Of a stretch of DNA of 64,000 nt, positions 7,686-16,043 are shown piece by piece. A program made the position numbers and the translations under genes. The stretch is from Toxonevra muliebris (taxonomy: Eukaryota > Arthropoda > Insecta > Diptera > Pallopteridae): contig OY829330.1 of the NCBI GenBank assembly GCA_963691655.1, positions 16,588,815 to 16,652,814 of the forward strand, in the 5' to 3' direction. Within the stretch, counting starts at the first letter, position 1, and the number at the start of each line of letters is the position of its first letter. The notes beneath the pieces are model-generated. The model was not told the origin of the DNA. It searched no databases and saw only the letters and a program-made list of their open reading frames with translations.

Positions 7686-8060
7686 TGGGTGAAACGATAG
7701 TTCTGGCACTGTTGGTGAACTTATATAATAGCTTATAAAGAGTAACTACGATTTCGGAGCAGTTGATGCAGTTATACTTGTTCGTGAAGTCTTTTATATT
7801 CCGTGGACATAACTTATATTTTAGATTTATCGGTACCGAAATGGCAAATATTGCTCCATTAACATCAAGAATTTCTAATAGCTCGCAAGCACAATATAAC
7901 TTCAAAATATCAAAAACTGCCAGCATTGGGATCTTCAAGGCTCATCTTTGGGAAGTTATTGATAACGCAAACTAATACTGAGATGAATTGAATTATCTGT
8001 ATCTTCATAGTGGACATTAACCTCTGATACCAGAAACGATGAAAGCATCCATAAACTTAA
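7686..8060 (+). other. Unassigned stretch before the TAA array
   Basis: A 70-aa frame (7763-7975) has no motif I know. The first ~20 bases after the poly(A) resemble the 5' end of Dong-B (see findings). The stretch runs into a TAA array at 8060-8074 and could be the 3' part of an element with a TAA tail. Confidence 0.3.
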
Positions 8061-8164
8061 TAATAATAATAATAGTTACACCTCCCTCGCAGTTTGGTTT
8101 ACATTATTATTATTATTATTATAGAGGACCCTGTCGAGATGGAAAAACTCTATAATAATAATAA
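8060..8164. repeat. TAA-microsatellite landing pad with two tiny Dong fragments
   Basis: The order is (TAA)n at 8060-8074; a 27-bp inverted copy of Dong-A's 5' terminus (8075-8101); (TTA)n at 8102-8123; a ~36-bp direct copy of Dong-A's 3' terminus (GGACCCTGTCGAGATGG, 8126-8152); and (TAA)n abutting full Dong-A. As a result 8075-8124 and 8150-8193 are reverse complements and form a ~45-bp-stem hairpin. Confidence 0.85.
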
Positions 8165-8229
8165 TGTAAACCAAACTGCGAGGGAGGTGTAACTACCCAC
8201 GTGCGTGGCAAGCATGCAACCCCTAGCCA

Positions 8230-8261
8230 ACCTCATGAAGGGCTAACTACCCACATGAGTG
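8230..8261 (+). promoter_or_regulatory. Hairpin containing the Dong-A start codon
   Basis: CTCATG (8232-8237) pairs with CATGAG (8254-8259), with an inner GGG/CCC pair around CTAACTA. The ATG at 8255 lies in the 3' arm. Dong-B has a same-length counterpart at 12379-12410, in which one outer T-A pair is replaced by C-G and the GGGCTAACT core is unchanged. This suggests a conserved RNA structure around translation start. Confidence 0.45.
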
Positions 8262-11200
8262 AAAAAATAGTTCCAAACGCAGCAAGAGAAGCCTCGGACG
8301 AGCGCCGTCACGGTCGAGTACGGCGCGGGAATACACAGCTCGACCAAGATGCCGAAACCGCTAATACAAACCAATCTACCGAACGTGTTTTGCTAGGACA
8401 ACCTGCAACCACTAAGGCTGGAAAACCCAGGCAACGCATGACATGGGCAACCGAAATGAATACCGAGGTTATGCGTTGCTACTACAAAGCAACAAAACTT
8501 GAGACAGTTAGAATAGGATACAGGGAAGAATTATATAACCTATTTATACAAGCTTATCCACAGTTAAAAGACATCGTTACTACACAGAGGCTAATGGATC
8601 AAAAAAGGACTATACTAATAAACAAACGCCTATCAGAAATTGAAATTGAGAACATAAAACAATCAATAGCATCATCTCTCGATACACGATCGTCACAGAC
8701 CCACAGTACAACAGTGGAACAACAAGATATTCTAAGAGATACAACAGATCAAAACAATAACACAGCCACTACACCAACACTAAACAATAACATTCTGATA
8801 ACACCAATCCAAAATCAAACCAATACCAGCACTAATGAAATAATAGATGTAATAGGAAACAAACTACTTGAAAACACCATAAAATGGAAAAACACAGACC
8901 CAACATTAAGAATTCCACTCCTGAAACTAATTTTTAAAGAAGGTACAACCACAAATATAAACAGTCTGAATGAATACATAAACACGCACCAGTCGTACAT
9001 GGAAGAAATCAGAAACCTCGAAGACTATCAAACAATAATATATGCAGCTGCTACGACAATAATAGAATTAAATAAACAAAAAATACAAAAAAGAAACGTC
9101 ACGACCAATAGCACTTATACCCCGAAATGGCAAACTCGTTTAAATAACAAAATACTAAAATTAAGAAAAGACATTGGAAGAATAACACAATACAATAGAG
9201 GTAACCCAAGTAAAAAACTAGTTAAATACATCAAACAAATAGCTAAAGAAAATGAAACCATAACCGAAACCCTAGACACCCTACAGCAAAAACTTAAAGT
9301 CTATTCATACAGAATACGCCGGTATATAGAATCATATAAAAGAAAACAACAAAACAATAAGTTTAAAAATAGTGAAAAAACTTTTTATAAATCATTAGCA
9401 GAAAAACAAATAGATATAAGACCCCCAACAAAACAACAAATACAAACATACTGGCAAGAAATATGGGGACATCCCACAAAACATAATAGCAACAGTACAT
9501 GGATTAAAGAAGAAGAAACTCTATACAACACCTTGCCAATACAAGAAAATTTCACAATAGCACAATCAGAACTCACAATAGCCATCAAAAACACTAATAA
9601 TTGGAAATATCCTGGAATAGACCACATACACAACTTTTGGTACAAAACATTCAACTCAACCCACAATAAACTACTACTACTGATAAACGACACCCTAAAG
9701 AACTCAGCGACGTTACCATCCTTCCTAACCCAAGGAATAACATTCATCAAACCAAAGAATTGCAATACCAATAACCCGGCAAACTATAGGCCAATAACGT
9801 GCCTACCCACACTTTACAAAATAATAACTTCACTAATCTCACAAAAAATTTATACACATCTCTTAGATAATAATATACTTACAAATGAGCAAAAAGGATG
9901 CAGAAAATATAGCCAAGGATGTAAAAAACAATTAATAATCGACCAAACAATCACACAGCAAGCAATAAAGGAACAACGAAGTCTCCACACATGCTACATA
10001 GACTATAAAAAGGCATTCGATAAGATACCACACAGTTGGCTTATACATGTCCTAAACATATACAAAATTCACCCAAAATACATCGATTTTCTAAAAAATA
10101 ACATGAAAAACTGGAGAACAAATATACACTTACAAACTAAATCAGAATACATAACTACAGACCCAATAAAAATAGAAACCGGTATATTCCAAGGAGACTC
10201 TCTAAGTGCACTTTGGTTCTGTATATGCCTGAACCCCCTATCTAACTCACTTAACAAAACACAATACGGATTCAATATCAAAAAACACAAACAAAATGAA
10301 CACCGAATAAATCACCTGCTATATATGGACGACATTAAATTATACGCAGCAACACAATCACAATTACAAAGATTAATTAGAATAACAGAAACAATCACAA
10401 TAGACATAAAAATGGAATTTGGTATCGATAAATGCAAAACACAACACATAGAACATGGAAAATGGATAAACAGAGAAGCAACAGAAACCTTAAACAATGA
10501 AATCTTACAAAACATGGAAGAACAGGATCTTTATAAATACTTAGGTTTTCAGCAAAGTATAAAAATAGACCACACAACAATCAAAAATGAACTTAAAGCA
10601 GCATACTTGGAACGACTAACTAAATTAACAAAAACTTACTTAAATTCCAGAAATCTATTTAAAGCCATAAATACATTTGCAATACCACTACTCACATACT
10701 CATTTGGAATAATCAAATGGAGTAACACCGATATTGAAAACATAAAAATAGCCACCAGAACAAAACTGACCAAATACCAAAAACATCATCCACATGCATG
10801 CAAGGAGCGTATCACGATCCCCAGAAAAGAAGGTGGTAGAGGACTGATAGACATCCAAAACCTACACAATAACCAAATAACCAATCTAAGAAACTATTTC
10901 TATACCCAAACAACAACATTACATCAAGCAATAATAAAAGCAGATAATGATTACACCCCACCAAACCTTAATAATCGGAACCTTATAATAAATAATCAAA
11001 CAATAGAGGAAAGTAAAACAATATGGAAACAAAAACAATTACATGGAAAACACCCACACATAGTAGACAACAATAACATAGATAAACAAAATACATACAC
11101 ATGGCTGATAAAAGGTGAACTACAACCGGAAACAGAAGGGTTTATAATAAGTATACAAGATCAAATAATAGCAACAAGAAACTACAGAAAGTACATAATT

Positions 11201-11809
11201 AAAGATCCAACCATCACAACAGATAAATGCCGAAAATGCAACATATACACAGAAACAATAGACCATATCACATCAGGATGCCCAATACTTGCAGGATCAA
11301 AATACACACAAAGACATGATACAGTAGCCAAAATAATCCACCAAGAAATCATAAACAATCTTAACATCTCTAACAATAGAATACCATATTTTGAATACAA
11401 GCCCGAAACAATAATAGAAAACGAAACCTTCAAAATATACTGGGACAGAACAATACTTACGGATAAAACAATAGCATGCAATAGACCAGATATCACGATA
11501 ATAAATAAAAAAGATAAAACAACCCAGCTTATTGAAATAAGTGTACCCAATGACAACAATATACATGACAAATACATAGAAAAAATAGAAAAATATACTG
11601 AACTTGCACAAGAAATCAAAAACATCTGGAAACAAAATGAAGTAAAAATAATACCATTCATAATTTCAACAACAGGAATACTACATAAATCATTTACAGT
11701 AAACTTAAAAACCCTTGCAATTAACGAAAAACTGCATGCGAAAATCCAAAAAGCAGTAATTCTCAAAACATGCAACATAGTCAGGTCCTTTTTAAATCTA
11801 AATTCATAA
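8255..11809 (+). CDS. Dong/R4-like retrotransposon polyprotein: DNA-binding, RT, zinc finger, restriction-like endonuclease
   Basis: The 1184-aa protein performs target-primed reverse transcription. An N-terminal Myb-like block (RQRMTWATEMNTEVMRCYY) is typical of Dong/R4. RT follows with NYRPITCLPTLYKI, CYIDYKKAFD, GIFQGDSLSALWFC and the catalytic YMDD at 10322-10333. The thumb ends in GGRGLIDIQNLHN. A CCHC zinc motif (11228-11281, C-R-K-C...H...C) precedes a restriction-like endonuclease with R-PD (11483-11491) and LIEIS. I place the start at ATG 8255. The frame is open further upstream, but only from a GTG, and Dong-B conserves this ATG. All catalytic motifs are present, so it is potentially active. 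Confidence 0.88.
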   Translation: MSEKIVPNAAREASDERRHGRVRRGNTQLDQDAETANTNQSTERVLLGQPATTKAGKPRQRMTWATEMNTEVMRCYYKATKLETVRIGYREELYNLFIQAYPQLKDIVTTQRLMDQKRTILINKRLSEIEIENIKQSIASSLDTRSSQTHSTTVEQQDILRDTTDQNNNTATTPTLNNNILITPIQNQTNTSTNEIIDVIGNKLLENTIKWKNTDPTLRIPLLKLIFKEGTTTNINSLNEYINTHQSYMEEIRNLEDYQTIIYAAATTIIELNKQKIQKRNVTTNSTYTPKWQTRLNNKILKLRKDIGRITQYNRGNPSKKLVKYIKQIAKENETITETLDTLQQKLKVYSYRIRRYIESYKRKQQNNKFKNSEKTFYKSLAEKQIDIRPPTKQQIQTYWQEIWGHPTKHNSNSTWIKEEETLYNTLPIQENFTIAQSELTIAIKNTNNWKYPGIDHIHNFWYKTFNSTHNKLLLLINDTLKNSATLPSFLTQGITFIKPKNCNTNNPANYRPITCLPTLYKIITSLISQKIYTHLLDNNILTNEQKGCRKYSQGCKKQLIIDQTITQQAIKEQRSLHTCYIDYKKAFDKIPHSWLIHVLNIYKIHPKYIDFLKNNMKNWRTNIHLQTKSEYITTDPIKIETGIFQGDSLSALWFCICLNPLSNSLNKTQYGFNIKKHKQNEHRINHLLYMDDIKLYAATQSQLQRLIRITETITIDIKMEFGIDKCKTQHIEHGKWINREATETLNNEILQNMEEQDLYKYLGFQQSIKIDHTTIKNELKAAYLERLTKLTKTYLNSRNLFKAINTFAIPLLTYSFGIIKWSNTDIENIKIATRTKLTKYQKHHPHACKERITIPRKEGGRGLIDIQNLHNNQITNLRNYFYTQTTTLHQAIIKADNDYTPPNLNNRNLIINNQTIEESKTIWKQKQLHGKHPHIVDNNNIDKQNTYTWLIKGELQPETEGFIISIQDQIIATRNYRKYIIKDPTITTDKCRKCNIYTETIDHITSGCPILAGSKYTQRHDTVAKIIHQEIINNLNISNNRIPYFEYKPETIIENETFKIYWDRTILTDKTIACNRPDITIINKKDKTTQLIEISVPNDNNIHDKYIEKIEKYTELAQEIKNIWKQNEVKIIPFIISTTGILHKSFTVNLKTLAINEKLHAKIQKAVILKTCNIVRSFLNLNS

Positions 11810-11972
11810 GTACTTATACGTAACGAACAAAAATCAACATACAACAAACAAAAAGCAACAGGAAAAAGAAAAAACAACAGAGCATTGTCCTTTGGTAACG
11901 CTACCCGGGACATATGTAATCTCCGACATGTGCGGACCCTGTCGAGATGGAAAAACTCTATAATAATAATAA

Positions 11973-12033
11973 GGGGTGTAACGATAGTTCGCCTCCACGT
12001 GGTGCACCCTGGGTAATGCCAAATGAACTATCG
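11973..12033 (+). ncRNA. Candidate HDV-like self-cleaving ribozyme at Dong-B 5' end
   Basis: Manual folding accounts for all 61 bases in HDV order. P1 is GGGGTGT (11973-11979) with GCACCCT (12004-12010), including the conserved G.U at the cleavage position. P2 is CGATAGTTC (11982-11990) with GAACTATCG (12025-12033). P3 is GCC (11991-11993) with GGT (12001-12003). Loop L3 is TCCACGT, whose CC can form P1.1 with GG at 12011-12012. P4 is minimal or absent. A CAAA segment (from 12020) fits the C-N-R-A catalytic J4/2. Predicted cleavage before 11973 is exactly the TAA/element border. Confidence 0.65.
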
Positions 12034-12403: not shown

Positions 12404-15400
12404 ATGGGTGATTAAATTGTTACTAGTAGAATAGAAGAAGCCTCGGACGAGCGCCGTTACGGTCGAGGACGACGCGGGACTAGAATGCTCGATCAAGATA
12501 CAATTCTGGCAAACGAAATTCAACCAGCCCCTACTGTTTTATCGGATCAACCGGTAACCACAAAGGCTGGAAAACCACGACAACGCATGGCTTGGACTAA
12601 TGAAATGAATATTAACATCATGCGCTGCTACTACAAAAGCACTAAACTTGAAACAATAAAAATAGGATACCGTGATACATTCCACCAACTATTCACTCAA
12701 CTTTACCCACAATATTCGCACATTACACAGCAAAGGCTAGCAGATCAAAGAAGAACAATAGTAATGAACAACAGAATAACCAACATTGAACTTCAAATCA
12801 TCAAGGAAGAAGTATCTGTCGAACTAAATTTAATAACGAATGAAAATAACAACAACGTCAACCTATCACAGACTCATAATAGCGAACAAACACAAAACAA
12901 CCCACAAATACCAAGCAGTACTAGAACACACAGCAACCTACCAACACACAATAACTCAGATCTTGTTGATAACGCAGTCATTCACACCCTTTCCGATCAA
13001 AATAACAACCTAGAAACCACTCCAAATAGAAACATAAACCAAAACCATAACGAACTCACAAGTCCACACAACGATTTACGTGAAAATATAAAAAATGAAC
13101 TAAACACAAATATTGCTAAATGGAAAGATACAAGTCCTATTAACAGACCTTCACTACCAAAACTCTTTATAAAAAAACAAACTATGATCATAATAGAAAT
13201 AATAAACAGCGAACTTTTACCCACTCTATTTAACCACAACTCAACTCTAGAAGACATACACACCCTAATATATATATCTGCAGTAACTACACTGACACTT
13301 AATAGCCAACAACCAATATCAAAAAACATGAAACCGTACAAAGAGAGGAAACCAAAATGGCAAATAAGACTAGAAAACAAAATAAATCAACTCCGTAAAA
13401 ATATAGGAAGAACTACACAATATACCAGAGGAAACCACTCAAAAAATATAATAAAACACATAGAAAAATTAAACCAACGATACAAAAAACCAATAGAAGA
13501 GACCCTTGACATATTAAAACAAAGACTTAAAGCATACGCTGCGAGACTCCGCAGATACAAGGAATCGTATCAAAGAAAAATGGACAATAGAATGTTTACA
13601 AATAATGAAAAACTTTTCTACCGAAAACTAATACATAGTCATAACCCGATTAACGAACCTCCTACAAAAGAAGAAATAACAAAATATTGGCAAGGCATCT
13701 GGTCAGAACCACTTCAACATAACGATACAACCCAATGGATAAAAGACGAAGAAATATCACAAAACAATTTAAACTCTCAGGATAATCACATAATAACTAC
13801 ACAAGACATAATGGAAATCATTAATAAAACACATAACTGGAAATGCCCTGGAATAGACAATATACACAACTTTTGGTATAAAAAGTTCACATACATCCAT
13901 GAACACCTAACTATATTAATAAATAAAATAATAGCCAATCCACAAGATCTCCCAGATTTTCTCACAATAGGCAAAACATATATAAAACCGAAAAATAACC
14001 AAACCAATAACCCAGCAAACTACAGACCCATAACTTGTTTACCAACTCTATACAAAATAATAACAGCTACATTATGCAAAAAAATAGATACTCATTTATC
14101 AGCACAAAAAATAATAACCAATGAACAAAAAGGTTGTAAAAAACATAGTCAAGGATGTAAAGAGCAGCTGATAATAGACGCAACAATCATGAAACAGGCA
14201 ACAACACAACAACGAAACCTACACTCATGCTTTATAGACTACAAAAAAGCATTTGATTCCGTTCCTCATAGCTGGCTAATGAAGGTGCTAAAAATCTATA
14301 AAATTCACCCAACATACCAACATTTCCTAGAACAAACAATGAAGAAATGGAAAACAACAATAAGCCTAATCACACCAACAGATACAATTGAAACAGAAAA
14401 AATAGAAATAAAAAGAGGAATTTTCCAGGGAGACTCCTTAAGTGCGCTCTGGTTCTGCCTCTGCTTAAATCCTTTGTCAAACTCTCTCAACAAATCATCA
14501 TATGGCTATAATATAAAACATCATACAGAAACAAAACATAAAATAAATCCTATACATGGACGACATTAAACTATATGCAGCAACGGAAACTCAACTTGAA
14601 GGACTCCTAAGAATCACAGAAAGAATCACTACAGACATAAAAATGGAATTCGGAATGAGTAAGTGTAAAACACAACACATAGAAAAAGGTAAATGGATAG
14701 AAAGACACACGAATATAGCATTAAATAATGAAGTACTAGATAACATGGAAGAGAACGAAACCTATAAATACTTAGGATTTCAACAAAGCACGAAAATGGA
14801 TCACAACACAATAAAGAAACATATTATCAATCAATACGAAAAACGACTCCATCTAATCCTAAAAACATATCTCAATGCAAAAAATATGTTCAAAGCAATA
14901 AATACATACGCAATATCAATACTTACATACTCATTCGGAATAATAAACTGGACAAACACAGATCTAAACAACTTAGAAATAGCAACGAGAAAACAGTTAA
15001 CGAAACACAGAAAGTTACATCCAAATTCCTGCATACAAAGAATAAACATCCCAAAACATCCCCCAACAGAAGGGGGCAGAGGACTCATAGATATCACCAA
15101 CCTACACAATAGCCAAACTAACAATCTTCGAACATACTTTCACAATAACACTTGTAACTTACATCAAGCAATAGTTCTCGCAGACAAAAACTTCACACCA
15201 CTTAACTTGCATAATTACAACCAATCATTTAACCTGACAACAGTACAAGAAAAGAAGGCAATATGGTCACAAAAACAACTACACGGAAAACACCTACATG
15301 CAGTGCAGAACGACAACATAGATAAGAATAACTCCTATACATGGCTAAGTAGAGGGGAACTCTATCCAGAAACAGAAGGCTTTCTAATTGCAATACAAGA

Positions 15401-16043
15401 CCAAGTTATATCCACTAAAAACTACCTTAAATATATAATAAAAGACCCCAACATAGTCAATGACAAATGCAGGAAATGCCAAATACAAACCGAAACCATA
15501 GACCATATAATATCCGGATGCCAAGTTCTGGCCGGAACGGACTACACAGAAAGACATAATATTGCTGCAAAAATAATACACCAAGAACTAGCCACATACC
15601 TTAATCTAACCAAAAACACAGACCCATATTATACATACCAACCCATAACTATAGCAGAAAATGAAACATATAAACTATACTGGGATAGAACAATACAAAC
15701 AGATAAAACCATTTTTAACAATAGACCAGATATCACACTTATAAATAAAATAACCAAAACCACATACCTAATAGAAATAAGCACGCCTAACGATACCAAC
15801 ATTCACAAAAAATATTGTGAAAAAATAGATAAATATAATGAACTAACACAAGAAATTAAACGAATATGGAAACAAAACACAATTAAAACAATACCATTTA
15901 TAATATCGGCAACTGGTATCCTACACAAAACCTTCATTTCAAATCTAAAATTTTTAAACATAGAACCAAAGATTCATCACAAAATTCAAAAAGCTGTGAT
16001 ACTGAAGACCTGTAATATAGTGAGAAAGTTTTTAAATCATTAA
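12404..16043 (+). pseudogene. Dong-B retrotransposon ORF, stop at codon 4 and one frameshift
   Basis: The ATG at 12404 aligns with Dong-A's start, but the fourth codon is TAA where Dong-A has AAA. The frame then stays open (next ATG 12485) to 14569 with the Myb-like block (RQRMAWTNEMNINIMRCYY), RT fingers, CFIDYKKAFD and GIFQGDSLSALWFC. Five bases are missing relative to Dong-A just before the YMDD box (14553-14564), and the rest reads in another frame to 16043: YMDD, thumb, CCHC finger (C-R-K-C...H...C) and the PD...E endonuclease (RPDITLINK, LIEIS). Apart from the early stop and the frameshift it is intact, so it is young or recently inactivated. Confidence 0.85.

Follow-up and report, generated by a model that had tools for sequence, protein, structure and literature searches.

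What forms the 5' end of a LINE that begins directly behind the last TAA of its target? The question is raised by a Dong/R4-type element, here termed Dong-B, in the window (the whole 64,000-nucleotide stretch of DNA analyzed). The original prediction had fitted all 61 bases after that TAA to the P1, P2, P3, L3, P1.1 and J4/2 parts of a hepatitis delta virus (HDV)-like ribozyme. We confirmed this fit in both sequence and coordinates, and the results below give good support to the prediction of an HDV-like ribozyme where a Dong-type LINE meets its TAA target.

Dong-B and its genomic copies

In the window, Dong-B follows a second Dong element, Dong-A, in the following arrangement:

8165..11972, + strand: Dong-A, 5'-truncated, with a 1214-aa open frame and a TAA tail, upstream of Dong-B
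11961..11972, + strand: (TAA)4 separating the 3' end of the upstream Dong-A from Dong-B; the TAA count varies among copies
11973 to ~16187, + strand: Dong-B element
11973..12033, + strand: whole predicted HDV-like ribozyme, 61 bases directly 3' of (TAA)4, with the predicted cut just 5' of G11973
12036..12295, + strand: Dong-B 5' untranslated region (UTR) with three tandem 87-bp repeats that begin 3 bases past the ribozyme and also occur in other copies
12416..16043, + strand: Dong-B coding region, overlapping frames 12416-14569 and 14547-16043 with reverse transcriptase (RT) matches

Dong-B has the single long open reading frame (ORF) with an RT related to R2-type elements that marks R4/Dong members. 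The RT matches are to PF00078, the second Dong-B piece scoring 26 bits, under the cut-off of 29.6, and a 1207-aa frame is uninterrupted in two of the four full-length copies and interrupted in the window copy. With Dong-A as query, five PDB sequences matched, of which three are named R2 retrotransposon and two reverse transcriptase-like protein. A C-X2-C-X7-H-X4-C stretch followed by RPD, visible by eye in the coding translation, is a candidate for what we take to be the restriction-like endonuclease motif. Insertion into (TAA)n, the target given for LINEs of the R4/Dong clade (PMC7998251), was likewise found, with one copy in a TAATAG repeat. The 87-bp unit of the 5' UTR has one alignable unit in Dong-A.

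Copies were sought in a 491-Mb assembly that looks eukaryotic by its size and mobile elements, with all match counts being lower bounds. A 171-base query spanning the junction gave at least 34 DNA matches, with the ribozyme at four places (the window, C5:19999267, C2:67938023 and C4:26722411). The four full-length Dong-B copies found are identical in the 61 bases and the first G and differ in flanks and TAA counts. Three are located in Dong-A TAA tails and one in the TAATAG repeat, where the target itself could have supplied the first G, making that junction ambiguous by one base. Pairwise, the copies differ at 8-26 positions over ~4.2 kb (0.2-0.6% divergence), a level at which identity of all 61 bases is expected; identical as they are, the copies show no compensatory change. 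A 216-base query from the N-terminal coding part reached at least 19 places, four at 100%, one at 96% and 14 at 71-84% identity; the 96% copy is 5'-truncated and lacks the ribozyme, and the 71-84% places are largely Dong-A. Relatives for covariation were sought more widely. Part of the Dong-B ORF gave one pattern match and no relatives in viral_contigs, an alignment of eight proteins gave 133 stretches in viral_contigs and 102 in genome_contigs with no relatives in either, and the plasmid collection gave no match. A Dong-A protein search returned 11 proteins, seven of them at 43-70% identity, and a literature search made without the species name returned no recognized description of this very element.

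Fold and statistical support of the putative ribozyme

The predicted fold comprises the following parts:

11973..11979, + strand: P1 5' strand GGGGUGU, partner 12004-12010
between the P1 and P2 5' strands, + strand: J1/2, read from the sequence as AA
11982..11990, + strand: P2 5' strand CGAUAGUUC, partner 12025-12033, 9 Watson-Crick bp
11991..12003, + strand: P3 and L3, GCC-UCCACGU-GGU, aligned with P3/L3 of RF00094 and RF02682
12004..12012, + strand: P1 3' strand GCACCCU, then P1.1 GG, from descriptor and Rfam alignments
12019..12024, + strand: J4/2 CCAAAU with C12019 as likely catalytic C, in the G-C-N-A-A register of both Rfam alignments
12025..12033, + strand: P2 3' strand GAACUAUCG, pairing with 11982-11990

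After the last TAA (ending at 11972), the segment reads GGGGTGT AA CGATAGTTC GCC TCCACGT GGT GCACCCT GG GTAATG CCAAAT GAACTATCG, corresponding to P1, J1/2, P2, P3, L3, P3', P1', P1.1, linker, J4/2 and P2'. All seven P1 pairs form, two of them G.U (G1.U and one other). P3 has three of three bp (11991-11993 with 12001-12003, one G.U) and encloses the L3 loop UCCACGU, while P1.1 joins C11995-C11996 to G12011-G12012 and the linker GUAAUG precedes J4/2. Both the descriptors and a topology score recovered the nested double pseudoknot P1-P2-P3-P1.1 in canonical order, and Rfam alignments located the conserved HDV bases UCC..CG in L3 and G-C-N-A-A at 12018-12022. An alternative nested fold reaches −16.0 kcal/mol versus −11.6 for P1 plus P3 and −11.0 for P2 plus P3, the latter values referring to partial folds taken singly and not to the whole pseudoknot.

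Strict and loose descriptors each identified one site in the window, on the + strand only with none on the − strand, and no site in 18 dinucleotide-shuffled windows. Composition alone gives a chance of ~5e-13 per position and ~7e-8 for the window, figures that flatter the site because the fixed features were chosen after it was seen. The looser topology score at the junction, 40.3, was reached by none of 400 anchored mononucleotide shuffles (maximum 32.1) and also lies above 244 shuffles of a 510-base Dong-A region with 320 starts each (maximum 34.4), a null that represents Dong-A and not Dong-B.

At Rfam gathering thresholds, cmscan matched no family anywhere in the window. Run without score cut-offs (E up to 10, 601 bases, 4,227 families), it gave four matches, the top two of which are HDV-type and both located here: RF02682 (HDV-F-prausnitzii) at 11973-12030 with 19.7 bits (gathering 44, E 0.3) and RF00094 (HDV_ribozyme) at 11971-12031 with 21.9 bits (gathering 50, E 0.75). 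Dividing E by the number of families yields ~1e-4 per single named family. This covariance-model search ranks two HDV families highest at the junction, though with scores so far under gathering that the segment is not filed under RF00094 or RF02682. The P1, P3, L3, P1.1 and J4/2 regions of both models align end to end with the Dong-B segment; the models differ from it in the P4 insert, which has 30 or 15 positions in them and one base in Dong-B.

A C at this J4/2 position is the catalytic base of HDV ribozymes. In the Dong-B segment, GCCAA falls on the Rfam consensus GCuAA or GCUAA, which would place the catalytic C at C12019 and leave C12020 as the variable base that follows. As the loose descriptor also accepts the C12020 register, we infer the assignment, with C12019 as the most likely catalytic base. 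C12020 had been put forward as the base to mutate; homology points instead to its neighbor, so a mutant changed at C12020 alone may miss the catalytic base. Inspection by eye showed that any P4 helix of at least two pairs would have to recruit P1.1 bases or C12019, and a P4 of 2-3 bp (GG/CC) was dropped on these grounds. The earlier view of P4 as minimal or missing was thus borne out, P4 being absent, but not the view that this makes the window copy unusual, as the feature is common to all four full-length copies found and P4-less HDV-like ribozymes have been described.

Elsewhere in the window, positions 7687-7703 (GGGTGAAACGATAGTTC) match ribozyme bases 2-18 with one mismatch, just past the A run with which a degraded LINE-like stretch terminates. 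The remaining fold is absent there, and one of 5000 shuffles of the site's own 100 bases was equally good, so that chance may explain the match over the whole window.

Dong-A and known ribozymes as comparisons

Dong-A served as a control. Its 5' region as query gave at least 20 matches in the genome. Among 14 loci inspected, seven start with GCCCG at the expected base (three of these directly after TAA) and two more start with ACCCG. Most sampled copies are young, as seven of eight others differ from the window Dong-A at 4-6 sites over the last 1.5 kb and one at 84. No HDV-like fold anchored at the Dong-A start was found in two copies, the best topology score between −60 and +259 was 28.6 versus a shuffle mean of 28.1, and cmscan on the start returned one unrelated match and none of HDV type. 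Similarity between the Dong-A start and the Dong-B ribozyme was not significant (881 of 5000 shuffles equally good). The failure to find the fold in Dong-A supports the specificity of the Dong-B result; at the same time, Dong-A often has a fixed start without such a fold, and a fixed 5' base alone is therefore no proof of a ribozyme.

Dong-A 5' ends at L036:5832-5920 and L037-L053 illustrate the fixed GCCCG start without a canonical HDV-like fold. A Dong-A P1 of GCCCG/CGGGU with a CCTCC/GGAGG hairpin, drawn by hand, was rejected, since it leaves no L3 and divergent copies break the pairing. Between TAA/TTA runs at 8058-8190 of the window lies an inverted repeat built from part of the Dong-A 5' UTR and a fragment of a Dong-A tail; it resembles a rearrangement, or a twin insertion, where Dong-A starts.

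The mechanism has already been shown for Bombyx mori Dong, and P4-less HDV-like ribozymes are on record; Dong-B would be a further, compact example. Eickbush et al. (2013, PMC3774820) describe self-cleavage of B. mori Dong RNA at the TAA junction, with a 21-nt upstream product corresponding to seven TAA repeats. They list R4, Dong, baggins and L1Tc as elements cleaved at their own 5' end. The earlier proposal that Dong-B frees its 5' end by an HDV-like ribozyme is supported as to the fold, but in light of this precedent is not a new inference. B. mori Dong resembles Dong-B in being an R4/Dong element with a (TAA)n target and an HDV-like ribozyme at the TAA/element junction (the Dong-B cut being predicted), and differs in sequence, the primer printed there giving the start GCTCCCTAAAATCCTACC. 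The ribozymes of Ascaris R4 and of R2 release a LINE 5' end from a co-transcript, as predicted for Dong-B, although their targets are ribosomal DNA. R2 P4 is described as variable, some variants having too few bases for a stem, comparable to the P4-less Dong-B; in most R2 species, cleavage occurs within upstream 28S sequence, whereas P1 of Dong-B lies wholly inside the element. For silkmoth R2, PMC3774820 reports a P4-less HDV-like ribozyme of very low activity and cites an abalone ribozyme with five nucleotides in place of P4. Minimal metagenomic and phage ribozymes without P4 are active in vitro according to PMC10879173. Among them, drz-Mtgn and theta share with Dong-B the nested double pseudoknot and the lack of a P4 domain, and differ in their metagenomic or phage context, often beside tRNAs.

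Proposed mechanism and alternative explanations

We consider it highly probable that Dong-B, a Dong/R4-type LINE with recent activity, has as its 5' end a compact HDV-like self-cleaving ribozyme, here predicted, which lacks P4 and consists of these 61 bases. A transcript would run through the TAA target into Dong-B, in three of the four copies from the upstream Dong-A tail. The nascent RNA would fold and, with C12019 as general acid, break between A11972 and G11973. Element RNA released in this way, with GGGG at its 5' end, would then serve as the full-length template for target-primed reverse transcription, and new full-length copies would, under this proposal, start at the same G. What the analysis shows directly is the fold, how improbable it is by chance, its match to two HDV families and a 5' base that is the same in all four copies; beyond this we infer the cleavage with its Mg2+ dependence, the read-through transcription and the use of the cleaved RNA.

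It is improbable that the fold is inherited from an HDV-like ribozyme that has decayed or become inefficient, cutting poorly for lack of P4 or through misfolding, with Dong-B RNA starting otherwise. The absent P4, the competing nested fold, the low covariance-model scores and the very low activity reported in PMC3774820 for P4-less silkmoth R2 are all consistent with such decay. Against it, core bases and helices are intact with zero broken pairs, the family is young with an uninterrupted ORF in two of four full-length copies, and the P4-less minimal types are reported in PMC10879173 to be active. Far less credible still is a pseudoknot that arose by coincidence where an ordinary 5' UTR begins, with the fixed 5' base marking a promoter start site: Dong-A does begin at fixed bases with no HDV-like fold detected, but the descriptor and shuffle tests, the placement exactly at the junction and the agreement with two HDV models argue against coincidence.

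A further alternative concerns the copies and not the fold, and is compatible with a self-cleaving ribozyme as the best explanation. Read-through RNA that had escaped cleavage could have been copied into the Dong-A and Dong-B tandems as a single 8-kb unit, in which case the Dong-B 5' junctions would not be independent. Such a unit would fit the position of three of the four Dong-B copies behind a Dong-A tail, the ~99% likeness of the 8-kb stretches and one full-length Dong-A site, not polarized, that groups L032 and W against L036 and L031. The Dong-B sequences point elsewhere: L031, which adjoins Dong-A, groups with L033, which stands alone, through AAA-to-TTT at three adjacent sites versus W and L032, a state that the divergent copy L034, used as outgroup, shows to be derived, although the three sites may be one event. 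An A run whose length differs by one base is likewise shared by the two, with no polarity assigned. In the 5' 1.5 kb of Dong-A (seven copies; L041 left out, without the anchor word), L032 shares two minority sites with L039, and L031 shares one with L038 and L046; the three Dong-B-adjoining copies share minority sites with copies elsewhere and none mutually. In the last 1.5 kb (nine copies), the sole shared minority site joins L002, at the L031 place, and L025. On the polarized L031/L033 sites and the Dong-A minority sites, a single mobile unit was judged unlikely. Other Dong copies, too, sit in Dong-A tails (L015, L023/L024 and L027). For the INDEPENDENCE of copies, independent insertion into TAA tails is a better account than joint copying.

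Dong copies inside the TAA tails of other Dong copies form head-to-tail arrays at L015, L023/L024 and L027/L036.

Dong-B adds a predicted, compact P4-less natural example from a young LINE family and is in line with the view in the literature that R4/Dong elements have their 5' ends set by ribozyme cleavage. A broader scenario is tentative and, in our estimate, rather unlikely: two sister Dong lineages would arrive by separate routes at 5' ends fixed to the same degree, Dong-B through a minimal HDV-like ribozyme and Dong-A, with its GCCCGC start, through its own promoter or an undescribed kind of ribozyme; Dong-B would settle in Dong-A TAA tails, and the ribozyme would free it from Dong-A read-through. 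With Dong-A and Dong-B in one genome, the ways in which target-specific LINEs produce their 5' ends can be compared in a natural setting.
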